In this document: piece by piece, positions 4,820 through 59,368 of the stretch
How the letters are laid out: each line of letters begins with the position of its first letter
Position numbering within the stretch: the stretch's first letter is position 1
DNA from: Sorex araneus
Lineage: Eukaryota > Chordata > Mammalia > Eulipotyphla > Soricidae
Assembly (NCBI RefSeq): GCF_027595985.1
Contig: NC_073307.1
Location: 45,765,094 to 45,829,093 of the forward strand
DNA: 64,000 nucleotides
Direction: 5' to 3'
Program-made: the position numbers and the translations under genes
Notes under the pieces: model-generated
The model's input: only the letters and a program-made list of their open reading frames with translations
What the model was told of the DNA's origin: nothing
Databases searched by the model: none

Positions 4820-7800
4820 TGTGGCAGTGGGGGGGGCATTTGCAAATTTTTATTGCCTTTACTTTGGAACTAGAAACACTAGAATCAAATATAAATTACA
4901 CTGATGCTGCAGTTTATTAAATGACCATATAAACTAATTTTTCAGTTAGCTTAAATGAAATTATAGTCACCATTAACAAAGGTGATCCATCTGTCTGGTC
5001 ATTTCTATTCCAGATTATTTTAAGCAGTTGTATTTTGAAGAACCACCAGGGGTCAGGAAGGTACTAAATTCTGATACTCAATACCTAGTCTCAGGAAGCT
5101 GGACTGCCAAAGGACAGATGGAGGTGCTTGTTAAATCACTAATTTAATAGAAATATTAAAAACAAGGGCTGGAGCGATAGCACAGCGGGCTGGGCATTTG
5201 CCTTGCATGTGGCTGACCTGGGCCAACATGGGTTCGATTCCTCTGCCCCTCTCGGAGAGCCTGGCAAGCTACCGAGAGTATCTTGCTGCATGGCAGAGCC
5301 TGGCAAGCTACCCATGGTGTATTGGATATGCCAAAAACAGTAGCAACAAGTCTCATAATGGAGACATTACTGGTGCCCACCCGAGTAAATCGATGAGCAA
5401 CGGGATGACAGTGACAGTGATTAAAAACAAAATAGAGTAAAAAATTATGAACTACCAAAGTTCTTAAATGTGCTTCAGTTACATTGTTAATGTTCCTATT
5501 AGCTGTATTTCTCTTAGCAGGCTTTGACATTCTTGATGGTTTTGCAGTATTTTCATAAGATTTATTATTGAAAGAATCACATTGCCAACCTCCTGATAAG
5601 GATAAAATAACTTTTGTTTATTTGTTTATTTGGTTTGGGGTCATGCTCAAGGTTGACACTTGGCTTTTGTCTCTGGGCTCAAAGATCACTCCTGGCGGTG
5701 CTAGGAGAGGCAGAACCTTGTAGGGTGCCAGTGATCAAACCTCTAAAATCTAAACAGCTGACTTTTCAGTGAAAACAATGCATGTCCAGACTGAGGGTGT
5801 TTGTAGGACTATCTTTCCACCTTAAAAGTTTTCTCCTTAAGGCATTTAGGAGACTGAATGAAATTTCTGTGAATCCATTTGAAGTAGCCTCATGTTCTGT
5901 AAGGCTTCAGGATTGCCTTATAGATGAAATTAGACCCCGTTGGATTTTGCTCTTGAATTACGTTAGTTCCATAGCCCTCTTGCAAATGTTTCATTGCTCT
6001 GACTTGAACTAACTTCATTCTTGTTTCAGAGTCAGTTGTTTAGATTTTTAAAGGAGTCAAATCCTTTTAAAATGAAAAGTAAAAAAAAAATTGTGGTCAG
6101 TCATGAAAAGCATAAAGTTCAGAAAACCTAGACTACTTACTTCTTTTCAAGGTATTGGGTCTGTGATCTCTTTATAATCCCAAATCTGATACCATTTATT
6201 TTACTCTTGTTTCACAGTAAGGATTTTTGACTGGCTTTGCAAAGTTTTCTGTCACCTTCCTGAAATCCTGGGAATCTCAGAGATGGCATTTTCTGTGCCC
6301 AGCTATAACACTGATATTTCTCACACGGTGCATTAAAAGGAAACTCTAAATATAAGGGTTGAAGATTTGGTCAATAGTTACTGCTTCTCCCATCCAAATT
6401 TTTCTACCCTCACCCAAAGAATTGAAGAGTTAAGTGCTTTATTTAAACCACTCACTGAATAAGGTCTCTGACTACTGAATCTTGGGCCATCAAAACTGGA
6501 AGGTTCCTTCTACTTGATGTTGCATTTCTAAGAGTAAGAGAAGCTTTATGGAGTATAAGAGCTGCAGTTAGGGGGTTAGGGAAGGCTTGAAATTATAAGT
6601 TTAGTTTTTGCCTTCCTAACCCAGGACTATATAAAATATTCTATATTAATTTTCTACAAAACACATATGAACACATTTAACCTTATAAAAATCCTGGGAA
6701 TGAGGCACGAAAGCTGTTTAAAATATTTTTTTAAGTTGAGAAAATAGAGGTACACAAAATAAATGCTTTATCCAAAGTAAGAGAGCAAGTCGGTGGCAAA
6801 TATCAGAATGAATTCTTCTGATCTTCAGTTTAATTCAAGGAACATGGAAGCCACTACAATTTGAAAGTCTGAAATGAATTTTTTATTTGGTCAATTTGGT
6901 TTTGTTTGATGGAAATTTCTTCCTCTTCTATCATTCCAAGGGTGGGACCAATAAGAAAGGAAAGAGGCCATGGGGAGGGAGGTGGATTCTAGAAATTTTC
7001 CCGGTTAATGACCACCACAAGTGCCACTTCCTTATCTGTTTTCTAAAGGAGAAAGACGCCCATATTACAAGATCAGAAGGTCGGTTTCCACGTGGCTTAA
7101 GGAGGCGTCTCCTTCAAGTAAGAGACTTTATTTTTTTCTCACAGATCTGAGTACAGAAATACACACATCTGACTGACTTTCCCTTTTTCCTCACTTGCCT
7201 CAGTGTTTTTCTCACTGTGGTACGCATCACACATTGTCTTGTCATCATCAACATTCTACTTTTGCTTTTCTAATGAAAGTAAGTGCTGAGTTCTTATAAC
7301 AGTTCCTCTTTTCACCAATAATACCCAGCACTATTGTCTTCTAGATGTCAGTTACACAGAGACAATTTGAGATAAATAAAAGTGTTGATGATGATTGTAC
7401 TGGAGCGATGGCACAGCAGGTAGTGCATTTGCCTTGGACGTGGCTGACCTGGGTTCGATTCCTTCTTTCTCTCTCTCGGAGAGCCCAGCAAGCTACAGAG
7501 AATATCCCACCCGCATGGCAGAACCTGGCAAACTCCCTGTTGGCATATTCAATATGCTACAAACAGTAACAACAATTCTCACAATAGAGACTTTATTGGT
7601 GCCCGCTCAAGCAAATCAATGAACAATGGGTTGAGAGTGTTACAGTGTTACAGTTGATGATGATTCTTAGGCTTACTGGCCTTATAATTCAGTATATAAT
7701 CACCAATATGTGCACATTAATGACAAAGTAATGTTGCATTGTAATTTTCTGTAACTCAGGATGCATGTCCAAACAATCAATTTGTGTACAGACAACATGA

Positions 7801-10800
7801 AATTCACCATTTTAACTCAACACTGAATCTTAGCTGTCAAGAAAAAAAAATTCTCTATGAGTGTACTATCTGAAAGAGTTTCAACCTTCTATCCTTTTAG
7901 GAGAGCCAATGGGAAGGTCAGTGTTCTTGAAATAGTTTGGAAGGATGCAGGTATCTATGAAAGAATTGAAAGAAAGAGAAGTGGGAGAAAGCACAATATT
8001 GCTCAACCTGCCTAATAACACAAGTTGCCAAATTTCAGCAAAAAATGTATAAATGGTCTCAGGTGTCTTAAATCTGCTGTATCTAAAAATATTTTAGCAC
8101 TTCAAATGTTTTGCTTCCCTAGGCAACCGTTAGAGAGATTTGTCAGTTCATAAAGCTTTTCTAATGTCTATAGATATTCTGAATGTAAGGGATACATAGC
8201 AACCTTATAACCTATATAAAATTTTTATGTTTTTTTGTTCTGTCCATGAAGATGGCTTGAAAACCAACTTTAGTACATAGTTAGAATAGCAAATAGGTAA
8301 TGAAAGGAGTATGTACAAACACAGGTATCTAAGCTTCCAAATAGTGTGAAATATGCTTCCAAATCACTGTATCGCTGTCATTCCCTTTTTCATCAATTTA
8401 CTCGAACAGGCACCAGTAACATTACCATTTGTCCCAGCCCTGAGATTTTAGCAGCCTCTCCTTACTCATCTTTCCTAACAACTGGAGGCTCTTTCAGGGT
8501 CAGGGGAATAAAACCTGTTATTGTTACTGTTTTTGGCATATTGAATATGCCACAAGGAGCTTGCCAGGCTCTGCTGCATGGCATTAATAATCTACTAATT
8601 TCTTGAAGATAAGTATCACATCTATAAATGATTAATATATAATGGCTCACTAGATATCTCAATGTTTTTGTCAGACTAGAATTAGTTTCTTCATATTAGA
8701 GTAGTTTGCATATCATGAAGTAATTGGAAAAATGAGTATAATTTAATGGAACTAGGATAGGGGTAAAATAATTAAATATTCAAATATCACTTCAATCCTT
8801 ATACCTAATACAGAGTTAGTCATATTCTTGAAGCCAGAATAAAGTGACTCAAATATCATTTCCGACGAAACATTCATTATAATAAAAGTCAATGTTAAAG
8901 TTACAAACTACTTCTGAAAGAATATTTTATCTGAAGGTATATATTAGTGGAATGAGAGGTACTTCTATAGAGCCTCGTGCAATAATTATTTCGTAGTATT
9001 TGTGTGCTTCCCCAAGACTTGATGCAACCTTAGAATCTTCTAAACATGGCAGCTTGAGTAGTTATCACTACATTGTTATGTACTAAGTACATTGAGTTCA
9101 GGTTGTAACAGAAGACTCTGACATATGAGTTGAAGACATAGCTCAATGAGATAGCTCTCTGTACACAGAGCCTGGGTTTGATCTAGGCGATGTTTGGTTT
9201 CCTGAGCACCACTAGGATAAACATCTAGGAACTGATCCCATGGTAGTCCCTGAGAAGTGCTAGCTGTTGCCCCAAACCAAAATAAATAAATAAATAAATA
9301 AAAAGAACGTTGAGATATAGTACGTTAATATAAAAAACAGCAGTTTTCTTTTTCTTTTGTTTGCCTACTTTATATTAAACACTATGGTCTACAAAGTGGT
9401 TCATGATGCATTTGTTTCAGACATCTAATATTTCAACACCAATCCTACCACCACTGTCACCTTCCCCCCACCATTGTCACCATTTTCCCTACTACCCCTC
9501 ATACCTGCCCCTGTATAAAAATAATTTTATATTGTTTGTTACCACTGAATGTTAAAAAAGTACTTAAAAGGAAATTTGTGAAAATTCTTGTATCTCACTA
9601 TGGGGATATTAAGTCCTTGTCTGAGGGTTTACTAAGCTATGGTTGCTGCTTAGTTCTGTGTTCCTTTTAGTTGAGCTTAGGTGGTTTCCCACTCTATGAC
9701 ATTCCCATCTAATCCAGTGTGCTCCTACTGGGATATTAATATTGTAATGTTTGAAGATGTCTGGGAAATCCAGAATATTTAACAGTTTTATTTTTGAAGA
9801 ATGGATAAATGAATGTTGCAGTCACAGGAAAACCTAACAAGCTATTGGGTAACAACTGGGAGCTCCTTGCTGTCATCATCTGGAATTCCTATCAGTACAG
9901 AAAGATTGGAATTAATGGGATGAAAGTCAAATAACCATATAAGCTCCAAACTAATCTTATGTAGAGCAATTTAGAATTAGAAATAAAAGTTGAATCTGTA
10001 GTGTTTGTCTTTCTTATATATTTAAAATTTACTATTTTGCCTTACATCATTAATTTACTCTGTTGTCCAAAGACTGTTCTGAAATACAGCCCATTGCACA
10101 CAATGCACTAATGTCACAATTGATGCATTATCATTGATAGATTGATTGCGGTGAGTTTACAGACCCCAAGGTCTACTGTACCCGGGAATCTAACCCCCTC
10201 TGTGGCTCTGATGGCCAGACATATGGCAATAAGTGTGCCTTCTGCAAGGCAGTGGCGTAAGTATGATAAGCTTGAACTCTGTTTCTTAAAAATGCATTTG
10301 CAGAAAAAGATTGACATTTGCCTTCAAATATTCTAGAAAATCCTATTCATACCTCTATTAACATTAAATAAGTAAGCTAGATAAGTGGGAAGAAAACAAA
10401 CAATGAGAACAGAAAACTTACATAATAAATTATAAACTATGCATAATCTTGGCTTCTTAATTTTGTATTAAATTAGACTTATGGAGCCAGAGAAATGATA
10501 CAGAAGGTAGAGCACCTGACGTCCATGTAACTGTCACAGTCAGGACCCTGTATCAATACCCAGCACCACATATGGATCCTGGAGTATTGCCAGGGGTGAC
10601 AGAGCCAATAAAACACTAGATCCTAAGCACTCCTGCATAGGATCCACTCTCCCACCCACCCCCAATTTTTTTAGTTCTTCTAGGAAAAGTACTCCAAAAT
10701 GCATACAGAACTAATTTTCTATTTTTAATGAATTTCAGATAAAAACTTTCATTAATTTTTTTAACCAATTGTTTGCTTTTATTGCTATTGATTTGGAAAA

Positions 10801-12575: not shown

Positions 12576-12619
12576 AGATTATTTGTTTTATTTTGAGACC
12601 AGGAAAATATAAAGATACA

Positions 12620-12863
12620 CTGTCACTGTCATCCCGTTGCCCATCGATTTGTTCGAGTGGGCACAAGTAACGTCTCTTATTGTGAGACTTACTGTTACTG
12701 TTTTTGGCATATCCAATACACCATGGGTAGCTTGCCAGGCTCTGCCGTGCGGGCGCGATTCTCTCGGTAGCTTGCCAGGCTCTCCGAGAGGGGTGGAGGA
12801 ATCGAACACGGATCGGACTCATGAAAGACGAATGCCCTACTGCTGTGCTATGGCTCCAGCCCA
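12620..12863 (-). mobile_element. SINE, RTE-tail class, reverse
   Basis: Begins with the tail complement ACTGTCACTGTCATCCCGTT, contains GGCATATCCAATACACCATG and two GTAGCTTGCCAGGCTCT motifs, and ends in CTATGGCTCCAGCCC. AAGATACA flanks it (12612-12619 and 12866-12873). It lies about 45 nt beyond the probable SPINK6 cleavage site. Confidence 0.88.
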
Positions 12864-12899
12864 TGAAGATACAAGATGGAATAATTATTTTGTTATAAA

Positions 12900-13559: not shown

Positions 13560-13768
13560 GGGCTGGAGTGATAGCACAGGGGGTAGGGCGTTTGCCTTGC
13601 ACACAGCCATCCCAGGTTTGATTCCTCCGTCCCTCTAGGATAGCCCGGCAAGCTACAGAGAGTATCTCGCCTGCACAGCAGAGTCTGGAAAGCTACCTGT
13701 GGCGTATTCAGTATGCCAAAAACAGTAACAAGTTTCACAATGGAGATGTTACTGGTGCCTGCTCGAGC
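13560..13768 (+). mobile_element. SINE, RTE-tail class, cut short in the tail
   Basis: Head GGGCTGGAGTGATAGCACAG and normal body, but it stops inside the tail at GTGCCTGCTCGAGC. AAAGTAGTATGGT at 13547-13559 and 13769-13781 flanks it, so the last ~35 bp were absent when it inserted. Confidence 0.85.
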
Positions 13769-13789
13769 AAAGTAGTATGGTACTGTCAT

Positions 13790-14470: not shown

Positions 14471-14471
14471 T

Positions 14472-15609
14472 GTCTAACGTTCGTTGACTTAAAGAAGGCC
14501 TTCGATTCTGTTGAGACTGAGGTGGTCATCGAAGCCCTGGCCAAACAGGGCGTTCAAGCTCAGTATATCAAAATCCTCTGCAAGCTGTATTGTGGATTCA
14601 CCACCAGGATCTCACCATTCTACAAGGAAGTGATCATTGATATAAAGAGAAGGGTGCGTCAGGGTGATACCGTTTCACTGAAACTCTTCAGTGCCGCCCT
14701 TGAGAACATCATGCGATGACTGGAATGGGAAGGAATGGGAATGAAGATAGACGGTCGGCAATTACATCACCTCTGCTTTGCTGATGACAACGTTCTTATA
14801 ACACCAAACATTAGCCAAGTGGCACAAATGCTGACCAACTTCAACCACGAGTGTGGAAAGGTCGGACTGCTGCTGAATCTCAACACGACGATGTTCATGA
14901 AAAACGAACTGGTCCCTGAAGCTCCATTTGCTCTCAATGGAACGAACATCTCCGAATGCAGCAGCTATGTGTACCTGGGTCGAGGAATCAACATGAGGAA
15001 CACTTGGTGCCAGAACTGCGCAGGAGGAAGAGAGCAGCATGGAATGCATTCAAGAGTGTGGCAGAGGTGGTTAAGAGAACAAAGAACCTCCGACTCCGGG
15101 CACATCTTTTCGATTCCACCGTTCTTCCTGCACTAACATATGCCTCAGAGACCTGGGCCCTAAGCAAAAAGGATGAGAATGCTATTAGGGTATCCCAAAG
15201 AGAAATCGAAAGAGCTATGCTTGGAGTATCATGTCTCACTCAAGTGAGAGAAGGAATCCGGAGTTCTGACCTCCATCGATGGTCAAAAATCAGGGATGCT
15301 GTCTCGTTTGCCAAGACATCAAAAATCAGATCGGCCAGTCATGTAATGTGACTCAGAGACGACCGCTGGACTAGAGCTGTTACAGACTGGATTCCACAGG
15401 ATGTCAGAAGACCTCATGGCCTCCCACCAACTAGATGGTCAGATTTCTTCATCAAATCTCTGAATGAACGATTTGACGCTCTTCCTGTTCCTGGAGCGAG
15501 CAGATATCATTGGGCTACACTCGCACATGACAGGGACAAATGGAGACATTATTGGTGCCCGCTCAAGCAAATCGAAGATCAACAGGACTACAAGTGATAC
15601 AAGTGATAC
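14472..15609 (+). mobile_element. RTE-clade LINE, 5'-truncated copy
   Basis: Translates as the reverse transcriptase and C-terminal part of an RTE-type polyprotein: KKAFDSVE, VRQGDTVS, the catalytic box CFADD (at about 14,776), SETWALSKK, AMLGVS, WTRAVTDWIPQD and PTRWSDFF. An in-frame TGA at 14717-14719 and a frameshift near 15,000 break it. The 3' end has GGAGACATTATTGGTGCCCG and a repeated ACAAGTGAT, not poly-A, typical of RTE elements. A dead copy, not a host gene. Confidence 0.88.
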
Positions 15610-18165: not shown

Positions 18166-18330
18166 TATTCCTCTTTTAATTTGAAATCTAACACCTAAAG
18201 ATTTTTTTGTTTGTTTTATTTTGTTTTCCAAACAAGCAAAAAATCATCCTAAAGTGTACTCGGTAATGTGCTGTAAAAGTTCACACTGAACATACTCAAA
18301 ACTACTTTAACTCAGCTAAGGTCATCTTTG

Positions 18331-18573
18331 GGCAGGAGCCATAGCACAGAGGGTAGGACGTTTGCCTTGCACATGACCAACCCGGGTTCGATTTTCCTAC
18401 ATCCCTCTCGGAGACCTGGGCAAGCTACCGAGAGTATCCTGCCTGCACTGCAGAGCCTGGCAAGCTACCTGTGGCATATTTGATATGCAAAAAACAGTAA
18501 CAACAAGTCTCACAATGGAGACGTTACTGGTGCCCGCTCGAGCAAATCGATGAACAATGGGAGGACAGTGCTA
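18331..18573 (+). mobile_element. SINE, RTE-tail class
   Basis: Head GGGCAGGAGCCATAGCACAG, body CTGGGCAAGCTACCGAGAGT, tail GGAGACGTTACTGGTGCCCG with AAATCGATGAACAATGGGAG. Over 47 bp of tail it matches the RTE copy ending at 15,609 at 40 positions (hand count). Confidence 0.88.
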
Positions 18574-18757: not shown

Positions 18758-18998
18758 CACTGTCACTGTCACTGTCATCCCGTTGCTCATCGATTTGTTT
18801 GAGTGGGCACCAGTAACATCTCTCATTAGAGACTTATTGTTACATTTTTTGGCATATCCAATACGCATGGGTAGCTCTGCCTTGCGGGCTCGATACTCTC
18901 GGTAGCTTGCCGGGCTCTCCGAGAGGGGCAGAGGAATCGAACGTGGGTCGGCTGCATGAAAGGTGAACACCCAACTGCTGTGCTATCGCTCCAACCCC
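18758..18998 (-). mobile_element. SINE, RTE-tail class, reverse, with target duplication
   Basis: CACTGTCACTGTCATCCCGT tail complement at the left, CTATCGCTCCAACCCC head complement at the right. ATAAGTATCTT flanks it at 18747-18757 and 18999-19009. Confidence 0.9.
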
Positions 18999-21215: not shown

Positions 21216-21226
21216 TTAAAAATCTA

Positions 21227-21464
21227 TCACTGTCATCCCGTTGCTCATCTATTTGTTAGAGCGGGCACCAGTAACGTCTCTCATTGAGGGACTTATTGTT
21301 ACTGTTTTTGGCATATCCAATACGCATGGGTAGCTTGCCAGGCTCTGCTGCACGGGCTCCATACTCTTGGTAGCTTGCCGGGCTCTCCGAGAGGGGCAGA
21401 GGAATTGAACTCAGGTCGGCCGCGTGAAAGGCAAATCCCCAACTGCTGTGCTATCGCTCTAGCC
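21227..21464 (-). mobile_element. SINE, RTE-tail class, reverse
   Basis: ATCACTGTCATCCCGTTGCT at the left and GTGCTATCGCTCTAGCC at the right. Short A-rich flanks (AATTAAAAA on both sides) are a possible target duplication. Confidence 0.88.
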
Positions 21465-22258: not shown

Positions 22259-22784
22259 ATGAGGGATCATTTGTATCACTTGTCGTCCTGTTGATCTTCA
22301 ATTGCTGGAGTGGGCGCCAGTAACGTCTCTATTAGTCCCTGTCATGTGCGAGTGTAGCCCAATGATATCTGCTCGCTCCAGGAACAGGAGGAGCCTCAAA
22401 TTGTTCATTCAGGGTTTTGACGAAGAAGTCTGACCATCTCGTTGGTGAGCAGCCACGTGGTTTTTTGATGTCCTGTGGAATCCAGTCGGTAACAGCTCTA
22501 GTCCAGCGGTCGTCTCTGAGTCGCATTACATGACTGGACTATCTGATTTTTGACACCTTGCCAAACAAGACAGTGTCCCTGATTCTTGACCATCGATGGA
22601 GGTTGGAACTCAGGATTCCTTCTCTCACTTGAGCGAAACATGATACTCCTAGCATGGCTCTTTCGATTCCTCTTTGGGATACCCGAATAGCGTTCTCATC
22701 CTTTTGCGTAGAGCCCAGGTCTCTGAGGTGTATGTTAGTGCAGGAAGAATGGTGGAGTCGAAAAGATGTGCCCGGGAGATCCGG

Positions 22785-23215
22785 AGCTGCCTCACACGAA
22801 GCGGACCCTCTGCTCCTAAAGACTATGATCCCAGAGGTCTTCCAACTCATTTTGGCACCCAAAGTGGCTTCTTACAGAAATGCATCTAGACTGTGAACTG
22901 AGCTAAGTTATCAGAAATCCAAAACCGTGCAGCCTTTGTCGTGGCTGCAGGAGCTCATAGAGTCTTCATTCTCAGCAATGAAAAGAAATTATTAAATGAT
23001 GCCTTTTCAGCAGGCCTGGTTGTTGGGGAAAAATTCCAGACAACAATAGTGAGTTCTCTATTGAAATATGAATGTATTCAAAATATAGAGATAATAAAGT
23101 GAAGATCATTAGCTACTTAGGTGGGGGGTTGGGAGGGGGTTATATTGGGGTTCTTGGTGGTGTAGCATGTGCACTGGTGAAGGGATGGGGGGTTAATCAT
23201 TATATGACTGAGACG
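22785..23215 (+). mobile_element. L1-like short element inserted in the RTE copy
   Basis: Contains CTAGACTGTGAACTGAGCTA, CATTCTCAGCAATGAAAAGA, AACAATAGTGAGTTCTC and the L1-like end GCACTGGTGAAGGGATGGGG. It matches the elements at 56518-57345, 57975-58618 and 61025-61914. It breaks off without an A tail at GAGACGTAAACC. The surrounding RTE sequence resumes with a short repeat of TGTGCCC. Confidence 0.75.
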
Positions 23216-23824
23216 TAAACCTGTGCCCAGAGCCGGAGGTTCTTCATCCTCTTAACCACTTCTTCAACGCTCTTGAAGGTGTTCCACACTGCTCTTTTCC
23301 TCCTGCCCAGTAATGGCACCAAGTCATTCCTCATGTTGAATTCTCGACCCAGGTACACATAGCTGCTGCATTCGGAGATGTTCATTCCATTGAGAGCAAA
23401 TGGAACATCAGGGACTAGTTCATTTTTCATAAACTTCATTTTGTTGAGATTCAGCTGCAGTCTGACCTTTCCACACTCGTGGTCGAAGTCGGCCAGTATT
23501 TGTGCCGCTTGGCTAATGTTTGGAATTATGAGAACGATGTCATCAGCAAAGTGGAGGTGGTGTAGTTACTGACCATCTATCTTCACTCCCATTCCAATCA
23601 TCGCATGATGTTCTCAGGGATGGTACTGAAGAGTTTTGATGAAATGGTGTCACCCTGCTGAACCCCTCTCTTTACGTCAATGAGTACTTCCTTGTAGAAT
23701 GGTGAGATCCTGGTGGTGAATCCATAAGATAGCTCGCGGAGGATCTTGATGTACTGAGTTTGAACACCCTGTTTGGCTAGGGCTTCGATGACCTCTTCAG
23801 TCTCAACAGAATCGAAGGCCTTCT

Positions 23825-24008
23825 TTTTTTTTTTTTTTTTTTGGAATGTTTATTTATTTATTTTTATTTTTTTAATTAGTGAGTCACCATGAGGGTACGG
23901 TCACAAATTTACCCATCTTCGTGCTTGTGTTTTCCTCATACAATGTTCGAGAACCCATCCCTCCACGTGTCCATTCTCCACTACCAATGCATCCAGTATC
24001 CCGCCCTT
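23825..24008 (-). mobile_element. L1 3'-end fragment inserted in the RTE copy
   Basis: A T run, then GTGAGTCACCATGAGGGTAC and CCATTCTCCACTACCAATGC, the complement of the L1 3' UTR. It interrupts the RTE sequence between CCTTCTT and TAAATCGACGAACATT, contiguous in the copy at 55,150. Confidence 0.85.
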
Positions 24009-24649
24009 AAATCGACGAACATTAGACAGAGCGGCATCTTGAACTCTCGAGAAACTTCAATGAGTTTGGTCACCATGTGGATATGGTCTATCATGGTGAG
24101 TCCTTTTGGTAACCTGGCTTGCTCTCATGGCTATCCTTCGTCTAGTGTTCTGCCAATCCTATTCAGGATGACTCAAGTGAACAACTTGTAGACGACGGAT
24201 AACAGGCAGATTGGGCGATAGTTGCCGATGTCATGGATGTCTCCCTTCTTGTTCAACAGAACGGTCCTGCTGGTTTTCCATTGAGATGGAACCTTGCATT
24301 CGGACAGGCAGCATGTGAAGAGCCGAGCCAGTGTATTGACAAGTACTGGAGGCAGATTCCTCAGGTGTTCAGGTCTGACCTTGTTTGGACCAGGTGCTGT
24401 ACGTGTCTTTACTGATGAAACGGCATGTCGGATTTCAAAAGGGAGGATGTTGGGAATGACATATCTATCCTACAGAATTTTGTATGTGGGCAGGTGGATG
24501 TGGCTGTCAAAGAGATCTGAGTAGAAGTCATGAATAATCCTGTTCATTGCCCTTCTGGAAGATGTGATAGATCCATCAGGACATCAGAGGGCAGTCATCT
24601 TGGTCTTGTAGTTGGCGAAGGACAGGTGAGCATAACATGAGGGATACCA

Positions 24650-27601: not shown

Positions 27602-28817
27602 TCAGAAGAGGATTCAGCACGATAGAACATATCCACACAGTGACCAAACTCATTGAAGTTTCGCGAGAGTTCAAGATGCCGCTCTGTCTAACATTCATCA
27701 ACTTAAAGAAGGCCTTCGATTCTGTTGAGACTGAGGTGGTCATCGAAGCCCTGGCCAAACAGGGCATTCAAACTCAGTATATCAAAATCCTCTGAGAGCT
27801 GTATTGTGGATTCACCACCAAGATCTCACCATTCTACAAGGAAGTGATCATTGATGTAAAGAGAGGGGTGCTGCAAGGCAATACCATTTCACCGAAACTC
27901 TTCAGTGATGCCCTAGAGAATATCATGCGATGACTGGAATGGGAAAGAATGGGAGTGAAGATAGACGGTCAGCAATTACACCACCTCTGCTTCGCTGATG
28001 ACATCGTTCTCATAACGCCAAACATTAGCCAAGCGGCACAAATGCTGGCCGACTTCGACCACGAGTGTGGGAAGGTCGGATTGCAGCTGAATCTCAACAA
28101 GACGATGTTCATGAAAAACGAACTAGTCCCTGAAGCTCCATTTGTTCTCAATGGAATGAACATCTCCGAATGCAGCAGCTATGTGTACCTGGTTCGAGAA
28201 ATAAACATGAGGAATGACTTGGTGCCAGAACTGCGAAGGAGGAAGAGAGCAGCGTGGAATGCATTCAAGAGCATCGAAGAGGTGGTTAAGAGAACGAAGA
28301 ACCTCCAACTCAGGGCACATCTTTTTGATTCCACCATTCTTTCTGCACTAACATATGCCTCGGAGACATGGGCCCTACACAAAAAGGATGAGAATGCTAT
28401 TAGGGTATCCCAAAAAGGAATCGAAAGAGCTATGCTTGGAGTATCACATCTCACTCAAGTGAGAGAAGGAATCCAGAGTTCTGACCTCCATCGAAGGTCA
28501 AAATTCAGGGATGCTGTCTCTTTTGCCAAGGCATCAAAAATCACATGGGCCGGTCATGTAATGCGATTCAGAGACCACCGCTGGACTAGAGCTGTTACCG
28601 ACTGGATTCCACGGGATGTCAGAAGACCTCGTGGCCGCCCACCAACTAGATAGTCAGATTTCTTTGTCAAATCTCTGAATGAACGATTTGAGGTTCTTTC
28701 TGTTCCTGGAGCGAGCAGGTATCATTGTTTTGACTACAGTAGGTCGCAACAGGGACAAATGGAGATGTTACTGGCGCTCGCTCGAGTAAATCGAAGATCA
28801 ACAGGATTACAAGTGAT
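27602..28817 (+). mobile_element. RTE-clade LINE, truncated, with long target duplication
   Basis: Encodes the reverse transcriptase to C-terminus of the RTE protein. The 234-codon frame 27949-28653 holds CFADDIVLI (catalytic Asp pair), KRTKNL, ALTYASETWALHKK, WAGHVMRF and [18 protein letters not shown]. Stops at 27795 (TGA), 27931-27933 (TGA) and 28651-28653 (TAG where other copies have TGG, Trp) kill it. It ends ACAGGATTACAAGTGAT without poly-A. A ~31-bp repeat with one mismatch, beginning ACCACTGGAAATGACCTC, flanks it on both sides. The best-preserved RTE copy here. Confidence 0.92.
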
Positions 28818-28849
28818 ACCACTGGAAATGACCTCCGGAGAATCAACAC

Positions 28850-33669: not shown

Positions 33670-36600
33670 GTGAGTACTATATAGCATACATTTAGAATGG
33701 AATCCTGGACCAGATTGACTAATGTCAGTAGTCATGATATAATGCTATTGTTTGTGTTTATAGTATCAATGATAAGGATTATGATGTTGATTAATGATAA
33801 GGACAATGGTAACTGTCCATCACATTATTAAGAAGGAATATTTACTTGTAAACTAGCTACTTTAATTAAAGCTGTAATATTACACAAGAGATAGTTCATC
33901 CAACTATAAAAACAATTTTAGGTCTCAAAGATGAGATGGCCTATGAGAGGTCACGTGCTTCCCAAGAAACTAATCTAAGAGTTCCATGACTATTATGTTC
34001 CCCTCAACAGATAACACAAAGAGTATAATAATATGAATAAACTTAATTTTTAAAGGAAATACTTTAAAATGAAATTAATAATTCTCACCTAAAGTTTTTT
34101 TTTTCTTTTTGGGTCACACCTGGCGATGCACAGGGGTTACTCCTTGCTTTGCACTCAGGAATTACTCCTGGCGGTACTCAAGGGACCATATGGGATGCTG
34201 GGAATCAAACCCAGGTCGGCGGCATGCAAGGCAAATGCCCTACCCACTGTGCTATCGCTCCAGCCCCTAAAGTTATTTTTTTAAGAAACTCCTATTTAAG
34301 AACTTCAGTTAGCAGAATGTTTTCTAAGAAGTTTATGTTTTACTGAAAGCTGAGTGAGTTGTTCTTGTTTACTCTCCACTTAAATAATGAGAGTGAGGTA
34401 GAGAATGAGAGAGAGAGAGACAGAGACAGAGAGAGGGAGAGAGAGAGGGAGAGAGAGAGAGAAAGAGAGTCAGATAGAGGGGGGGAGCAGAGGAAGAGGG
34501 GGAGGAAGATAATCTAAACTCAGACTATGCCCTTGGAGAGAAAGAGATGAAAAGATAACGGAGTGATTTCAATGGATAATAACAAAACCCATAAATAACA
34601 AATATAGAAAATGGAACTTTGTACTTATAATTTTTTTAGTCTGTCCTCTAGCTCATTTATGTAGTTAAAAGCTGCATGTCCTGGTAAAATATTCTTTCTT
34701 TGGGTTTCAGTTCTTCATGTATAAAGAAAAGCCATTGTAATGGTCTAAGGGTAATTTTAGATGTAAATGCTGGAATGATTTGGAGGTGCAGTGTTTTATC
34801 AGTGTTTATTTCTTGTTGCAGAGGCTGTAAGCCAAGGAGGCTCCCAGGTAAGTGCTTCTTTCATAAGACCTTCATGGTCACAAGAGGTTGCCTTACAGCA
34901 CTGGCGATGTTAAACTGGGAAGTGCTATGGTTATTCCATCAAGTTCTCCTGAGTTCCTTTTACTGGTAGGGTGAGGAGGTGAAAAAATATCATGATATAT
35001 GGATCTAGAGAGTGTCATCCATGATGTAGTTGTGATTTTCTTAATAGGCAAAGAGACTTGAAAATTTACTTTCTTTTCTTTAAATTAGTCAAGAACACAA
35101 TTCCATATTAGGAGTATATATAGTCAAAGTCTCTAAAACAGTACAGTGTCTATAAAATGTGAAGTAAATATAACTTTGGATAATATTGAAAGTATAATGT
35201 AGGGACTTATAATAGATTTAACAGAATAATGATAAATATATTATTCTAGGCAAACTGGAGCATAACTTGCTCATGAAAGTTGCTGAGGATGCTGGTAAAA
35301 TGTATATTTTCACTCCCTACACAGATTTTTAGGGGGTTGATTTTACCAAGATATCTAAAAAATGATAATGTCCCCTTCTATTATTTAGAACAACTTAAAT
35401 AAACTTCACCATATTCTCAGCATCCATGGAACTCTCCAAGCATCGAACTCACTTTTACTCTCATATGTTCCCCTGGAAAGATTTACTGCCTTCTCTTTAG
35501 TATCTGTACTAGTTTTGTTAATATATTTGATACAAAATTTGTCATATTATTACCACTCATAGATAGTCTTCTATTTTAGTATATAAGAAATATTGGTTTG
35601 GGTTGGTTTATTTTTTTCATCATAGTGCTTTAAGATTAACACCAGTTTATAAGTATAATGGATAAATATGTAGATGGATAAAGGATACATGTAGAAACTG
35701 ATGAGTAGATTTTTGAATGACTGATTCAGCAAACATTAATTCTCAGAAGACTATCGGATGTAAGCTATAATATTGTTTCCACTTTCTAAAATTAGCTGAC
35801 TACATAATTTTTATATGTGCCTGAATTTTAAAGAACTAGACATCTTACCTGAAATTTTAGTTTAACATATATTGATTCACTGTCATCATCATCACTGTCA
35901 TCCTGTTGCTCATCGATATGCTAGAGCGGGCACCAGTAATGTCTCCATCGTGAGACTCGTTGTTACTGTTTTTGGCATATTGAATACGCCATGAGTAGCT
36001 TGCCAGGCTCTGCCGTGCAGACGGGATACTCTCAGTAGCTTGCTGGGCTCTCTGAGAGGGATGTAGGAATCAAACCTAGGTCTGCCGTGTGCAAGACAAA
36101 CGCCCTACCCGCTGTGCTATCACTCTAGCCCATAGGAAATATAAATACAAAAAATAATTACTAACATTTTACTTCATAATTTTACTGGATTTCTTTAAAA
36201 AACTTTAAATCCAGGTCCTGGAGAGAAATGATAGGAGTTAAGATGCATGTCTTGAATGTGACCAGACCAATTTTCTGGCACTCCACGGTCCCTGGCACCC
36301 ACTGAGCAGGAGCCTGAGCATGGAGCCAGGAGTGGCCCCTGAACAATGTTGAGTCTGGTCCAATCCCTCCCAAATCAAATCCAAGCACAAAGATTTGATT
36401 TTTAGAAATATGCCTAAAATAAAATATTGAGGATTTACCTAACTGCATGTACATAGATACCCATGGAAATATTATTATGTTAGCAAAATCATAGAATACA
36501 GACTAAGGATGTATGTAGCTCAACAATGGAATACTTTTCTTGCATGTGTGAGACTCTGGGTTCAAACCCTGTCACTACAAAGTGAAAATCATGGAATCAT

Positions 36601-40163: not shown

Positions 40164-40699
40164 CACGATCACGATCACAAAGTCCCGTTAATCATCGATT
40201 TCTCGAGCGGGCTCAGTAACCTCTCCATTCGTCCTTTCCCTGAGATCTTAGAAGTCTCTCTCAACTCGGCCCTCCCAACGATGTCGCACTGGAGGCTCTT
40301 TCAGGATGAGGAGAATGAGATCCAACTTGTTACTGGCTTTAGCATATGAATACACCATGGGTACCTTTCGAGGCTGTCCCATGTGGGCAGGAAACTCTCA
40401 GTATCTTGCTAGTTTCTCCCAGAAGGAGAAGTAGGTATAAAATATCGCTTCTGGGAGCTTGCTTTTAAGTCTCTGGATGTTGGCTGTTGATGGGATTACA
40501 CACACCTGGGTTCTTCTGCTTGTACCTTCATGCATGAGGCCTGTCTGAACATGTGGAGAGGAGCCTCGAGCATGGCTGTAGCTAGGTTCCGGTGGTCTTC
40601 AGCCGCCGGGAGCTCTGCTCGGGGTGGGGAGGGAAGCTGGAGCCCATCCCCTCCGAGGGGCCCCGGGGAAGACAGCCAGGTGTGCGGGCAAGAGACTCT
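40164..40699 (-). repeat. ~535-bp RTE-tailed repeat, copy 1
   Basis: Reverse orientation. Left: GATCACAAAGTCCCGTTAAT and TCGATTTCTCGAGCGGGCTC (RTE-like tail complement). Middle: AGGCTCTTTCAGG and GCATATGAATACACCATGGG. Right: GC-rich GCCGCCGGGAGCTCTGCTC and GGGGCCCCGGGGAAGACAGC. Matches 44842-45374 and 59427-59975 along the whole length. No protein seen. Confidence 0.85.
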
Positions 40700-41088
40700 C
40701 TGATAAAACAATGGAAACAAAATTGAGACATATGATAGTGAAAACTCGGCATAATTTATAGACAGGGATTATTTAGAGTATTTATGTAAATAAATCCTGA
40801 AAGTTAAAAAAGATTAAGGTACAAGGAAATTTGGAAAAAGGGTACTTCACAAATGCTTTTGTTCACAGAAGATTAATTATTCTTATACTAATAATTGCTA
40901 ATATAAACGGTTGTGAAAGATAACTTAAGGGTTTGAAAACTATTTTTACAAAAGCAAATAAATACATAATAAAGCAGAAAATCCAAAACTCTGAAATAGA
41001 AATAACTTTTCATATTTGAGGGTGAGTGAGACAGTTAATAAAGAGCTATGAGATCCAAATTACCTCATCAATATTTTATTTTATTATT
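40700..41088. other. Intergenic, unannotated
   Basis: AT-rich, no recognised element. Confidence 0.3.
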
Positions 41089-42600: not shown

Positions 42601-42745
42601 TCATGGCAGAGCCTGGCAAGCTCCCCGTGGCATATTCAATATGTCAAAAACAGTAACAAGAAGCCTCACAATGGAGATGTTACTGGTGCCTGGTCAAGCA
42701 CAGTGATGAACAACAGGACAGCAGTGCAGTACAGTGCAGTACTGA
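42601..42745 (+). mobile_element. SINE, RTE-tail class, 5'-truncated
   Basis: Starts mid-body (CATGGCAGAGCCTGGCAAGC), then GGAGATGTTACTGGTGCCTG and a tail with GTGCAGTACAGTGCAGTACT units, showing a variant tail repeat. Confidence 0.8.
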
Positions 42746-42841: not shown

Positions 42842-43065
42842 TCACTGTATCACTGTCATCCCATTGTTCATGGATTTCCTCGACCAGGCACCAGTAACGT
42901 CTTCATTTGTCCCAGGCCTGAGATTTTAGCAACCTCTCCTTACTCATCTTTCCCAATGATTGGAGGCTCTTTCAGGGTCAGGGGTATGAGACCTGTTATT
43001 GTTACTACATTTGGCATATCGAACATGCCATGGGGAGCTTACCAATCTCTTCCGTGAGATTTCAT
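42842..43065 (-). mobile_element. Third RTE-tailed repeat family, copy 2 (hybrid type)
   Basis: Same order as 8364-8583: TCACTGTCATCCCATTGTTC, GAGATTTTAGCAACCTCTCC, AGGCTCTTTCAGGGTCAGGG, GGCATATCGAACATGCCATG. The shared structure of two separate copies shows a real family. Confidence 0.75.
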
Positions 43066-44841: not shown

Positions 44842-45374
44842 CATGAATCACGAATCATGAAATCCCATTGATCATCGATTTCTCGAGCGGGCTCAGTAAC
44901 CTCTCCATTTGTCCTATCCCTAAGATTTTAGAAACCTCTCTCCACTCGGCCTTCCCAATGATGCCACATTGGAGGCTCTTTCAGGGTCAGGGGAATGAGA
45001 TCCAACTTGTTACTGGATTTAGCATATGAATACACCATGGGTAGCTTGTGAGGTTGTCCCATGTAGGCAGAAAACTCTCAGTAGCTTGCTAGTTTCTCCC
45101 AGAGGGAGAAGTAGGTTATAAGATACTGCTTCTGGGAGCTTGCTTTTAAGTCTCTGGATGTTGGCTGTTGATGGGATTTCACACACCTGGGTTCCTCTGC
45201 CGGTACCTTCATGCGTGAGGCTTGTCCAAACGTGTGGACAGGGGCCTTGAGCATGGCTGTGGCTAGGTTCTGGTGGTCTTTGGCCGCCGGGAGCTCTGCT
45301 CGAGGCGGGGAGGGAAGCTGGAGCCCATCCCCTCTGAGGGGCCCCAGGGAAGACAGCCAGGCATGCGAGCAAAA
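44842..45374 (-). repeat. ~535-bp RTE-tailed repeat, copy 2, with target duplication
   Basis: 533 bp, same organisation as 40164-40699. GGGTTCAATT at 44832-44841 and 45375-45384 gives both boundaries: the 3' end is the ATCACGAATCATGA tail (complement), the 5' end the GC-rich side. So the family moves as a retroposon of about this length. Confidence 0.87.
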
Positions 45375-45394
45375 GGGTTCAATTAATTTCTTTT

Positions 45395-45975
45395 TTCATT
45401 TATTTTCATTTATTTTATTTTATGTTTTTGTAATTTTTTAATTGAATAACCTGTGAGATACAGTTACAAAGCTTTCATGTTTGAGTTTCAGTCATACAAT
45501 GATCGAACACCTGTCCCTCTACCAGTGCACGTTTTCCACCACCGATGTCCCCAGTATTTCCCCTTTTCCAACTCTCCCCCTGCCTCTATGGCTGACAATT
45601 TCTTCCATACTCTCTCTCTACTTTGGGGCATTATGGTTTGCAATACAGATACTGAGAGGCTATTGTGTTTGATCATTTATCTACTTTCAGAACAATCTCC
45701 CATCCTGAGCAATCTCTCGGACCATTATTGACTTAGTGATTTCTTCTCTATTCTAGCTGCTTTCTCTCCCAGCTCATGAGGCAGGCTTCCAAACATAGAG
45801 CATTATTCCTGACCCTTGTCTCTACTGTCCTATGGTGTCAGTCTCATATTATTTTATATTTAGCAAATGTCTCTCTCTTTCTGACTTATTTTATTTAGCA
45901 TGAAACTCTCCATGACCATCCACTTAGAAGCAAATTTCGTGACTTCATCTTTTCTAACAGCTACATAGCATTCCA
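45395..45975 (-). mobile_element. L1 3' end, reverse
   Basis: CTGTGAGATACAGTTACAAA, CCAGTGCACGTTTTCCACCA, CTCTCTACTTTGGGGCATTA, and ACAGCTACATAGCATTCCAT where the ORF2 end begins. The frames here are complements of L1. Confidence 0.88.
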
Positions 45976-54112: not shown

Positions 54113-55432
54113 AGAAATGTATCACTTTACTTGTATCACTTGTCATCCCGTTGATCTTCTATTTGCCTGAGCGAGCGCCAGTAATGTCTCCATTCGTCCC
54201 TGTCATGTGCTAGTGTAGCCCAATGGTATCTGCTCGCTCCAGGAACACAAAGAGCCTCAAACCGTTCATTCAGGGTTTTGACGAAGAAGTCTGACCATCT
54301 TGTAGGTGGGCAGCCATGCTGTCTTTTGACATCCCGTGGAATCCAGTCGGTAATAGCGCATTACATGTCCAGCCCTTCTGATTTTTCGACGCCTTGGCAA
54401 ATGAGACAGCGCCCCTGCTTCTTAATGGTTGACAGAGGTCGGAACTCTGGATTCCTTCTCTCAGTTGAGTGAAAAGTGATATTCCAAGCATAGCTCTTTC
54501 AATTCCTCATTGGAATACCCAAATTCTTGTCCTGTTTTTGTCGGGCCCAGGTCTCTGAAGGCCCTACAAAAAAGCGGCCTTCTTTGCCTCTCCATGCAGG
54601 GAGAATGGTGGAGTCGAAAAGATGTGCCTGGAGCCGGAGGTTCTTCTTCCTCTTAACTACTTCTTCGATGCTCTTGAAGGTGTTCTACACCGCTCTCTTC
54701 CTCCTGCGAAGTTCTGGCACCGAGTCGTTCCTCATGTTGAGTTCTTGACCCAGGTACACATAGCTGCTGCATTCAGAGATGTTTATTCTGTTGAGAGCAA
54801 ATGGAACATCAGGGACTAGTTTGTTTTTCATGAACACTGTCTTGGTGAGATTCAGCTGTTGTCCGACCTTTCCACACTTATTGTCGAAGCCAGCCAGCAT
54901 TTGTGACACTTGGCTAATGTTTAGTGTTATTAGAACAATGTCATCAGTGAAGCATTTCTTACCATTCCAGTCGCCACATAATGTTCTCGAGGATGGTCTT
55001 GAAGAGTTTCGGTGAAATGGTATCACCCTGCCAAACCCCTCTCTTGATGTTAATGATGTCCCTTTCTACTTCCTTGTAGAATTGTGAGATTCTGGTGGTG
55101 AATTTGTTTGAATGCCCTGTTTGACTAGGGCTTCAGTCTCAACAGAATCAAAGGCCTTCTTTAAATCGATGAACATTAGACAGAGCGGCATCTTGAACTC
55201 TCGAGAAACTTCAATGAGTTAGGTCACTGTGTGGATATGGTCTACCGTGCTGAGTCCTCTTTGGAACCCGGATTGCTCACATGGTTGTCCTTCATCTAGG
55301 GTCCTGCCTATTCTATTCAGGATGACTTGAGGGAACAAATTGTAGACGACCAACAAGAGGCAGATTGGGCGATAGTTGCCGATGTCGTGGATGTCTCCTT
55401 TCTTGTATAACAGAACGGTCCTGCTGGTTTTC

Positions 55433-55620
55433 TTTTCTTTTTTTTTTTTTTTTTTTGCTTTTTTGGTCTCACCCGGCGATGCACAGGGGTTACTCCTGGC
55501 TTTGCACTCAGGAGTTACTCCTGACGGTGCTCAGGGGACCATATGGGATGCTGGGGATCGAACCCGGATTGGCCGCGTGCAAGGCAAACGCCCTACCCGC
55601 TGTGCTATCGCTCCAGCCCC
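55433..55620 (-). mobile_element. Young SINE inside the RTE copy
   Basis: Reverse A-tail SINE (TCACCCGGCGATGCACAGGG to GTGCTATCGCTCCAGCCCC). CTGCTGGTTTTC is duplicated at 55421-55432 and 55621-55632 from RTE sequence, proving insertion after the RTE copy. Confidence 0.95.
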
Positions 55621-56517
55621 CTGCTGGTTTTCTGTTGGGACAGAACCTTGTATACGGGCAGGTAGCTTGGGAAGAGCCAAGCCAGTGTGTTGACGAGTAC
55701 TGGCAGCAGATTCTTCAGGTGTTCGGGTCTAACCTTGTCTGGACCAGGTGCTATATGCATCTTTACTGATGAAATGGTGTGTCAGATTTTGGAGGGGAGG
55801 AAGCTGGAAATGACATATCCATCCTGCGGAATTTGGTATGTGGGCAGGTGGAAGTGGCTATCAAAGAGATCTGAGTAGAAGTTGTGAATAATACTCTCTA
55901 TTGCCCTTCTGGAAGATGTAATAGATCCATCAGGATGTTGAAGGGCAGTCATCTTGGTCTTGTAGTTGGCAAAGGACAGGTGAGTGTTGCGAATACTTTT
56001 CCTGGCTTCTGCCGCGTCAGCCAACACTGATGTTCTTCTCTCTTTGATGTCTTCCTTTATCGCTTCTCTGCACAGCTCTGCAAGCTCGGACATTAGCTTG
56101 TGGTTGCCTGAGGCTCGTGCCAAACCACGTTGGTGAATGTGCTTGAGAGTTTCTGAAGACAGGCGTCTGTTTGTGGCTTTCCCACTCTCAGCATTCTTCG
56201 CAGTCATGGAGGTGCTGAACCAGTTGATCGTATTCCTTGTCGATGTTGTTAAGGACAGCTTCTTCCCAAGTTGCCACAATAGTGCCAAAGAGCTCCCAGT
56301 TGGTGGTCATCCTGGGAGTTCTCTTCTTAAACTTAAACTTTGCAGTCCTTTCTCCCCACTCTGTGAAATAGAATTTTGCACAAATGAGACAGTGGTCCAA
56401 TCCCATTTGGAATTTTGGGACAAAAGCAACATCAGTCAGGTGAAATCTTTGATTGAATATGATGTGGTCAGTTTTGCTGTGGAACTATCCATGGGAGACT
56501 CCCATGTCCATTGTTTA

Positions 56518-57345
56518 TTTATTTTTTTTAAAGAAATATTTTATTGAACCACCGTGAAAAAAAAGAAAAAAAATACAAAGCTTTCAGGTTTAAGTCACAG
56601 TCAAATACTGATTAAACCACCATCCCTTCACCAGTGCACCCTTCACCAGTGCACCCGTTCCACCACCAAGAACGCCAATACACCCCCCTCCCACCCCACC
56701 CCCCATCTAAGTAGCTAATGATATTCCCATTATTCTTTATATATATTGAGTACATTCCATATTTCCATACAGAACTCACTATTATTGATTGGAAATTTTC
56801 CCCAACAATCAGGCCTGCTGAATATGCATCATCTAATAATTTCTCTTCATTGCTGAGAGTGAAGACTTTTGTTTTGGGTTTCTAATATTTTAGCTCAGTT
56901 CACAGTCAAAATGGATGGCTGCAAGAATCCGCTCTGGTTCCAAAATGGGTTAGGAGACCTCAGGATCACAGTCAATAGGCGAGGAGGGTCTGTTTCTCGT
57001 GCTGCGGCTCCCGGTTCATCTCTGGGCGGAAGGCACGCGGGAACGCCCCCCCTCCCAGGCCCACCTACAGGCTACGTCACTAAAGAAAGTCCTACCTCCT
57101 GGTGGAGGGGTCCTAGAGGGTGGCTCTTACCACGTGGCTGCTACCGCTGCCGCCATTTTCGCTCAGAAAAATGGGGTGGAGAGGGAAAAAAATCCCTCCC
57201 TGGGCTGCACGAGGTTGTAGCTCAGTTCACAGTCAAAATGCAATGGCTGCAAGAATCCGCTCTGGTGCCAAAATGGGTTAGGAGACCTCAGGATCACAGT
57301 CAATAGGCGCGGAGGGTCTGTTTCTCGTGCCTCGGCTCCCGGTTC
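56518..57345 (-). mobile_element. L1-like short element with two ~328-bp units, inside the RTE copy
   Basis: Reverse orientation. L1-like 3' end at the left (TTTATTGAACCACCGTG, then CCCTTCACCAGTGCACC), GC-rich 5' part at the right. AGCTCAGTTCACAGTCAAAA occurs at 56892 and 57219, and CGGCTCCCGGTTC at about 57,005 and 57,333, a tandem unit of about 328 bp. CCCATGTCCATTGTTTA at 56501-56517 and 57346-57362 is a perfect 17-bp target duplication. Confidence 0.92.
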
Positions 57346-57599
57346 CCCATGTCCATTGTTTAGATTCGGCCTTCTGGAACTGTGAGTTACCATGGATGGT
57401 CTTGGTCAACATGATGAACTCAGACAGTCTCTTACCCTGTTCGTTCCATTCTAGCCCGTGGATCCCAATGTGGAGTTCTTCAGGAGACTTTCTCGGTCCT
57501 ATCTTGGCATTGAAATCACCGACAATGATCTTGTAGAAGATGTGGTCTTCTTTATAGAACTTTTCCATTTATACATTATAAAGAAATGTACAAATTTGT

Positions 57600-58960: not shown

Positions 58961-59127
58961 TTTGTTCCACCGAAGGATGACTTCTAGGCAACAAACTTCT
59001 TGATATTCACTGAACTGAGGAAGCTATTGGGGAAGTCAATCGCCTTTAAGAAATTAACGGGAAAAAATAGATAATGTATTCAAATCAAATTGAAGGAGCA
59101 AAAAACACAATAACAAGTAAAAGCAGT

Positions 59128-59368
59128 CATTGTCACTGTCATCCTGTTGCTCATCGATTTGTTCGAGTGGGCACCAGTAATGTCTCTCATTGTGAGACTT
59201 ATTTGTTTTTGGCATATCCAATACGCCACGGGTAGCTTGCCAGGCTCTACCGTGCAGGCGGGATACTCTCAGTAGCTTGCCAGGCTCTCCGAGAAGGGCA
59301 GAGGAATCGAACACGGGTCGGCCTCATGAAAGGCGAATGCCCCACCGCTGTGCTATCGCTCCAGCCCT
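59128..59368 (-). mobile_element. SINE, RTE-tail class, reverse, with target duplication
   Basis: CATTGTCACTGTCATCCTGT at the left, GTGCTATCGCTCCAGCCC at the right. GTAAAAGCAGT flanks it at 59117-59127 and 59369-59379. Confidence 0.92.

Follow-up and report, generated by a model that had tools for sequence, protein, structure and literature searches.

A SINE of Sorex araneus that joins a Sor-type head to sequences matching both ends of an RTE-type LINE

Repeats in the window

The window, that is, the whole stretch of 64,000 nucleotides analysed here, lies at C6:45765094-45829093 in the 2.406-Gb genome of Sorex araneus, which is assembled in 65 contigs. It contains a SINE whose tail resembles the end of an RTE LINE (the RTE-tail SINE), copies of the RTE LINE itself, and headless elements in which the RTE 5'UTR is joined to the RTE 3' end and the tRNA head is missing. 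A self-BLAST of the window recovered all ten SINEs and all four RTE ends of the original prediction. The five headless elements, all on the minus strand, were absent from that prediction, as was the match between the SINE body and the RTE 5'UTR; both were found here by self-BLAST and consensus comparison.

Copies of the RTE-tail SINE, with the parts of the reference copy:
5166-5419, plus strand: reference copy, with the 11-bp target-site duplication (TSD) ATTAAAAACAA on both sides
5166-5241, plus strand: Sor-type tRNA-derived head of the reference copy, B box GGGTTCGATTCC at 5230-5241
5240-5356, plus strand: RTE-5'UTR-derived body of the reference copy, CCTC...CAACAAGTCTCAT, body match 5247-5349
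5357-5419, plus strand: tail of the reference copy, equal to the RTE 3' end, with the last ORF codons, the stop region and a short GTGACA repeat
5155-5165, no strand: 5' TSD of the reference copy, ATTAAAAACAA, from flank comparison
5420-5430, no strand: 3' TSD of the reference copy, ATTAAAAACAA, from flank comparison
7400-7647, plus strand: RTE-tail SINE (self-BLAST), TSD GTTGATGATGATT
12618-12865, minus strand: RTE-tail SINE (self-BLAST)
13560-13771, plus strand: RTE-tail SINE with a shortened tail, 33 bp aligned (self-BLAST)
18330-18570, plus strand: RTE-tail SINE (self-BLAST)
18763-18997, minus strand: RTE-tail SINE (self-BLAST), TSD AAGATACTTATG
21224-21464, minus strand: RTE-tail SINE (self-BLAST)
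35892-36131, minus strand: RTE-tail SINE (self-BLAST)
42602-42730, plus strand: RTE-tail SINE, 5'-truncated, without the tRNA head (self-BLAST)
59127-59368, minus strand: RTE-tail SINE (self-BLAST), TSD ACTGCTTTTAC

Copies of the RTE LINE:
27602-28819, plus strand: 5'-truncated RTE with the younger GAAGAT tail, RVT_1 in 27934-28650, 3' end match 28758-28816
14471-15600, plus strand: 5'-truncated RTE with a GAAGAT tail, 3' end match 15539-15597
22273-24630, minus strand: RTE in three aligned pieces with a GAAGAT tail, 3' end match 22334-22276
54133-57567, minus strand: RTE in three aligned pieces with a GAAGAT tail, 3' end match 54194-54136

Headless RTE derivatives:
8362-8574, minus strand: class C, a short 5'UTR block and the RTE 3' end
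42847-43056, minus strand: class C
44858-45400, minus strand: class B, a long diverged 5'UTR and the RTE 3' end, upstream limit approximate
40183-40700, minus strand: class B, upstream limit approximate
59587-59900, minus strand: class B, 5'UTR part, upstream limit approximate, the 3' part lying just below 59587

Single SINE and RTE copies of the window share stretches of 33-62 bp with 76-89% identity. An earlier hand count of 40 identities over 47 bp is exact for 18516-18562 against 15541-15587, although the coordinate given for it, 18,520, is off by 4 bases.

Structure of the RTE-tail SINE

The head of the SINE consensus carries the B box GGGTTCGATTCC and an A box that was identified by eye. 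It is nearly identical to the head of the classical Sor SINE over about 66 bp. ARAGORN calls tRNAs on such heads at 4175, 7402, 36739 and 55543, of which the one at 7402 belongs to an RTE-tail SINE and the other three to classical Sor. The head of the 5166 copy, which has a small internal insertion in the copy alignment, is not called. Among 88 Sor-type heads in the window and a 200-kb sample of the genome, 22 run into an RTE-type body and 66 do not. The two SINEs have only the head in common, the classical Sor body and A-rich tail being absent from the RTE-tail SINE.

The head meets the body at GATTCC/TCCGTCCC. Positions 65-175 of the SINE consensus match the RTE 5'UTR consensus with 108 identities in 111 positions (E 9e-52). 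The latter combines L019, the class D derivative of L012 and 16 further 5' regions, drawn from 40 matches listed for a query that consisted of the ORF-start region of L019. The near-full-length RTE in L019 has a block equal to the SINE body ahead of its ORF.

The tail, at positions 183-240, matches the consensus of the older RTE 3' ends at 58/59, the single exception being a gap and not a substitution (E 1e-26), and that of the younger ends at 54/59. Compared with another RTE 3'-end consensus, the SINE consensus gives an E-value of 2e-17. The parts of the SINE left unaligned to the RTE are the head of about 64 bp, about 7 bases at the junction and the last few bases of the terminal repeat. The E-values of 9e-52, 2e-17 and 1e-26 rule out a chance similarity of the SINE and the RTE. 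In the RTE consensuses, the segment shared with the SINE tail closes the ORF in frame, and the stop codon lies inside a terminal tandem repeat; the ORF end of the older consensus reads ...WRRYWCPLEQIDEQRDDK followed by the stop.

Because its body matches the RTE 5'UTR and its tail the RTE 3' end, the SINE is, as judged from these alignments, a classical Sor tRNA head placed on an internally deleted RTE. It has the pol III-type head, the RTE 5'UTR segment and the RTE 3' end by which a bipartite RTE-dependent SINE is recognized. The sharing of the 3' end with a partner RTE, proposed in the original prediction, is borne out, but that interpretation was incomplete, as it missed the 5'UTR-derived body, the coding nature of the tail and the closer, older RTE subfamily.

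The 5'UTR block at SINE consensus positions 65-175 contains the 18-bp motif AGAGCCYGGCAAGCTACC twice. A short candidate hairpin, GGCGTAT-TCG-ATATGCC, is largely retained in seven sequences of the family. The consensus fold of seven sequences largely keeps one hairpin, a result for which column shuffling was the sole control and in which CpG decay can mimic paired changes. Folded as a single sequence, the block has a z-score of -1.07 in the SINE form and -2.64 in the class B form. A structured tail was considered as a recognition signal and rejected, since neither the SINE tail nor the RTE tail folds clearly better than shuffled sequences do (z -1.38 and -0.04, respectively). Rfam, at its gathering threshold, gave no matches in the window. 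The terminal repeats of 55 SINE 3' ends are GACAGT in 27 cases, GCTACAGT in 11, GATACAGT in 5 and other forms in 12; these forms may mark subfamilies of the SINE.

The RTE LINE and its two types of 3' end

The LINE is presumably a member of the RTE clade, a name that follows the original prediction, the account of the shrew RTE in PMC6542046 and the form of RTE C-termini. The RVT_1 domain was found above the cut-off in two RTE copies, upstream of the shared tail. Exo_endo_phos_2 matched a decayed copy with an E-value of 1e-4, a match that falls short of the curated cut-off. Of seven RTE copies from the window and the sample that were viewed by eye, some have TSDs and others none that is convincing; the clearest is the copy at 27602, with a TSD of at least 30 bp containing one mismatch.

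The RTE ends are of two types, GATGAG (older) and GAAGAT (younger). Nine ends are present in the sample and the window: three are GATGAG (two in L015 and one in L016) and six are GAAGAT-like, one of them reading CAAGAT. In a tree of eight copies, from which the short ninth copy in L015 was excluded, two of the GATGAG copies form a clade with a support of 0.994. A genome-wide search with 34-base patterns, allowing at most one mismatch, found 748 GATGAG-type ends and 2,316 GAAGAT-type ends, the latter with a pattern that misses the GACTAC variant common in an RTE 3'-end consensus set; reversed-pattern controls gave none. The RTE consensus ends in the shared segment and a short tandem repeat, so that the LINE does not end differently from the SINE.

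The older consensus was made from 16 of the 100 GATGAG matches listed, of which 15 are preceded by RTE ORF sequence, whereas the remaining one (L108) belongs to a SINE. The younger consensus was made from the first 20 of the 100 GAAGAT matches listed. Two RTE consensuses of young copies are open across the translated stretch. In the older consensus that stretch is interrupted, further upstream, by two in-frame stops, so that this is a consensus of decayed copies. The 34-base pattern fixed most of the compared tail columns and left others, including GGTGCCC, free; the free columns are thus the real test of the tail match. In these columns the SINE and the older consensus both have TGGTGCCC, whereas the younger has TGGCGCCC.

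The tail is reached by 56 SINE copies, or 55 after the shortened copy at 13560 was dropped; the window and the unselected stretches supply 27 of these, and a search with the 5166 copy supplies the other 28. Their tails are GATGAG in 28 copies, AATGAG in 9, GATGAA in 8 and other types in 10, and none of the 55 is GAAGAT. The closest partner of the SINE is, by this comparison, the older RTE subfamily. The RTE copies of the window, to which the original prediction matched the tail, do share it, but all four end in GAAGAT and the SINE is closer to the older GATGAG type.

A stretch like CCACCGCCAYGCTCCAGGCTGCTTTCCG occurs twice in the RTE 5'UTR consensus (L069-L084), about 250 bp apart, with an agreement of about 0.5 to 0.7. 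The upstream part of the RTE 5'UTR may be tandemly built.

Headless derivatives of the LINE

In addition to classes B and C, headless elements of class D occur at L012:2931-2690 (minus strand) and L023:3296-3510; these keep about 30 extra bases of the ORF. The derivatives in L012 and L023 have a common internal junction, CCCCCAATA to GCCATTGGGC, with small differences, and thus represent a third deletion form besides those of the SINE and of classes B and C. Headless forms with other breakpoints hold RTE sequence that is absent from the SINE. According to a model for the birth of bipartite RTE SINEs, intermediates like these headless derivatives are to be expected (PMC7245038).

The 5'UTR of class B is clearly unlike the RTE 5'UTR consensus yet seemingly homologous to it (window 44858-45400 and 40183-40700, L010, L017, L022, L023 and L027). 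This hints at another RTE lineage with an autonomous member of its own.

Copy number and divergence

An unselected sample of 20 stretches of 10 kb, evenly spaced on contigs 1-3 only, contains 15 near-full-length RTE-tail SINEs, 53 classical Sor elements and 5 RTE 3' ends, the last number excluding two class D derivatives that passed the filter. Scaled to the genome with Poisson intervals, there are about 180,000 copies of the RTE-tail SINE (101,000-298,000), about 638,000 of classical Sor (478,000-834,000) and about 60,000 RTE 3' ends (20,000-140,000).

Divergence was measured as the distance of each copy from its own consensus, with CpG sites excluded. The SINE has a median of 0.064 (n=25, range 0.027-0.097), and Sor one of 0.096 (n=71, range 0.037-0.351). 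For the RTE, the medians are 0.080 in the older set (12 matches from the 16) and 0.077 in the younger (17 matches from the 20); both sets were picked by the 34-base motif, which was excluded from the measurement, and may lean young. In the window and the sample, the nine RTE ends are 0.069-0.131 from the nearer RTE consensus, on average above the SINE divergence. Two RTE ends of the window are at 0.038 and 0.056 from a consensus made mostly of close copies. The overlap in divergence fits, but does not prove, a shared activity of the SINE and the RTE. As Sor has the more diverged members, it is the most likely source of the head.

Insertion sites

Among copies with enough flank, TSDs above the 95% level of mismatched-flank controls were found in 32 of 50 RTE-tail SINEs and in 40 of 68 Sor elements. 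The SINE copies have TSDs of their own and are thus independent insertions, and an apparent sharing of the tail that arises only where SINEs inserted into RTE copies is therefore rejected. A stricter cut-off left 27 SINE and 34 Sor duplications. The window and the unselected stretches account for nine of the 27. The others are copies most like the one at 5166, retrieved by the search with it, in which the element is selected for but its flanking sequence is not.

Insertions of BovB and other RTE-clade elements have a Tn-TA signature, in which a T stretch lies about 10 bases upstream of the TSD and TA stands at its start, and human L1 prefers TT/AAAA (PMC13295347). The TSD starts with AAA in 0/27 SINEs and in 11/34 Sor elements (p 0.0007). 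TTT occurs within positions -15 to -6 in 13/27 and 4/34 (p 0.003), respectively, and T at -1 in 22/27 and 15/34 (p 0.004). Neither A at +1 (14/27 against 25/34, p 0.11) nor TA across the nick (12/27 against 10/34, p 0.29) differs between the two SINEs. When the SINE flanks are used as their own control, the excess of TTT is modest, with 13/27 at -15 to -6 as compared with 7/27 at -31 to -22. The frequency of T at -1 in the SINE is far above the T content of the flanks, 0.333 (p 4e-7).

Of 20 RTE copies, 7 overrun the extracted stretch and 13 have a 5' junction, 7 of the 13 having a TSD score of at least 9. These seven, for which the TSDs were scored without a shuffled control and one of which is a TA repeat, have TTT in 5/7, T at -1 in 6/7 and AAA in 0/7. 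The RTE differs from Sor in TTT (p 0.003); for T at -1 alone the difference (6/7 against 15/34) is not significant (p 0.09). In the target sites of the SINE, the T stretch and the T at -1 are established as RTE-like, and the A of TA is not.

No run of eight or more A was found in any of the 55 SINE tails within the 70 bases examined. Classical Sor shares the head but carries poly(A) and has an A-rich, L1-like start of the TSD. SINE copies truncated at the 5' end occur in L011, L013 and L027 and at 42602 in the window, as expected since target-primed copying predicts such copies. The RTE-like target sites, unlike those of Sor, give separate support to the earlier suggestion that the SINE was probably mobilized by the RTE.

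Origin and mobilization

The RTE-tail SINE is, with high probability, a bipartite RTE-dependent SINE, composed of a Sor head, an RTE 5'UTR block and an RTE 3' end, and copied by the RTE. It would be transcribed by pol III from the promoter in its tRNA-derived head. The endonuclease/reverse transcriptase of the RTE would then recognize the RTE 3' end of the SINE RNA, which would be copied into new sites by target-primed reverse transcription. The SINE itself may have been born from a headless mini-RTE and Sor RNA, by template switching or recombination.

It is very improbable that the SINE is instead copied by L1 in the manner of classical Sor, with the RTE-like tail as a passive passenger. The tRNA head is indeed that of Sor, whose poly(A) copies must presumably have been made by an L1-type machinery. 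However, the SINE tails lack A-runs, the TSDs do not start with AAA as 11/34 of Sor do, and the upstream T stretch and the T at -1 are as in the RTE copies. Mobilization by L1 is rejected on the target sites and the tail, this insertion signature largely refuting it. Even less credible is the reverse direction, in which the RTE took its ends from the SINE. Chimeras could in principle form either way, and nothing was found in favour of this direction. In the RTE, the shared tail is read in frame as the last part of an ORF, the 5'UTR block stands directly before the ORF start both in L019 and in the RTE consensus, and the headless derivatives, with their other breakpoints, keep RTE sequence that the SINE lacks. 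The derivation runs from the LINE to the SINE.

The identity of the LINE bears on its history. A horizontal transfer of RTE1_Sar between strongylid nematodes and the common shrew, Sorex araneus, has been reported (Dunemann and Wasmuth 2019, PMC6542046). It is highly abundant in Sorex araneus and was found only there among the mammals searched (PMC6542046). The main text of that paper has no occurrence of "SINE", "non-autonomous", "tail" or "short interspersed". The partner LINE described here is likewise an abundant RTE of Sorex and is probably RTE1_Sar, an identity that rests on the literature. It is unlikely that the LINE is an ordinary, long-resident RTE other than RTE1_Sar and that the SINE is thus unconnected with horizontal transfer. 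In favour of such a history is that the identity with RTE1_Sar comes from the literature and not from a sequence alignment; against it are the abundance of RTE1_Sar in this sole mammal and that of the RTE found here (24,479 first-look candidates in the genome). A Sor-type SINE also suits a shrew genome, Sor being described as a T-minus SINE of shrews (PMC8466645). On balance, it seems slightly more likely than not that a LINE shared with nematodes through horizontal transfer was exploited inside the mammal by the resident Sor SINE, by way of a mini-RTE consisting of the 5'UTR block and the last coding codons. This would have given on the order of 10^5 copies, in which the 3' end of the older RTE subfamily is retained.

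Relation to known elements and significance

The bipartite design is already known from AviRTE, hagfish RTEs and BovB, and the shrew SINE-RTE pair shares it. The bipartite structure of the BovB SINEs was reportedly described by Gogolevsky et al. in 2008, and the classical Sor SINE of shrews is said to have been described by Borodulina and Kramerov in 2001. Classical Sor differs from the RTE-tail SINE in its body, its poly(A) tail and its L1-like target sites.

The AviRTE SINEs of birds (ManaSINE1, GymnSINE and others) have, like the shrew SINE, a promoter head and a tail in two parts. Their tail is derived from the 5'UTR and 3'UTR of an RTE that birds share with parasitic nematodes by horizontal transfer (Suh et al. 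2016, PMC4844689). They belong to another RTE family and another class of hosts, and their 3' part is a 3'UTR of about 40 bp, whereas that of the shrew SINE is the end of the coding sequence. The hagfish elements SINE1-1_EBu and SINE2-1_EBu also combine an RTE 5'UTR with a 3' end, and their birth has been modelled as an internal deletion of an RTE followed by formation of a chimera with a headed SINE (PMC7245038); unlike the shrew SINE, they have 7SL or tRNA-UCON3 upstream parts and depend on other RTE families.

Bov-tA, Ped-1/Ped-2 and AfroSINEs are listed as SINEs dependent on RTE-clade LINEs (PMC3747384, Table 1). The BovB-type SINEs and AfroSINEs resemble the shrew SINE in having a tRNA- or 5S-derived head and an RTE-clade tail, although the LINEs are other members of that clade. 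Bov-A2 is a headless derivative with the LINE 5' end, comparable to the headless elements of the shrew, and the head of Ped-2 comes from the ID SINE, a parallel to the Sor head (PMC3747384). In that table of SINE-LINE pairs, published in 2013, no shrew pair was seen, and the word "shrew" is absent from the main text (PMC3747384). No account of the shrew pair was found in the open-access papers that were searched; the SINE family may already be catalogued in Repbase, Dfam or subscription journals.

A single genome here holds both LINE ends, headless derivatives, two LINE subfamilies and, as a control, an L1-type SINE with the same head. The shrew pair thus makes it testable which parts of the RTE RNA are needed by the RTE protein, and whether RTE SINEs always keep the 5'UTR block. 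If the proposed origin is correct, the same SINE design arose separately on the shrew RTE, on BovB, on AviRTE and on hagfish RTEs, and such separate origins would suggest that the RNA needs the 5'UTR block, which would then be no mere leftover. Should the LINE be RTE1_Sar, the pair would also show how far a mammalian genome can be reshaped by a horizontally transferred element by way of a SINE that depends on it.
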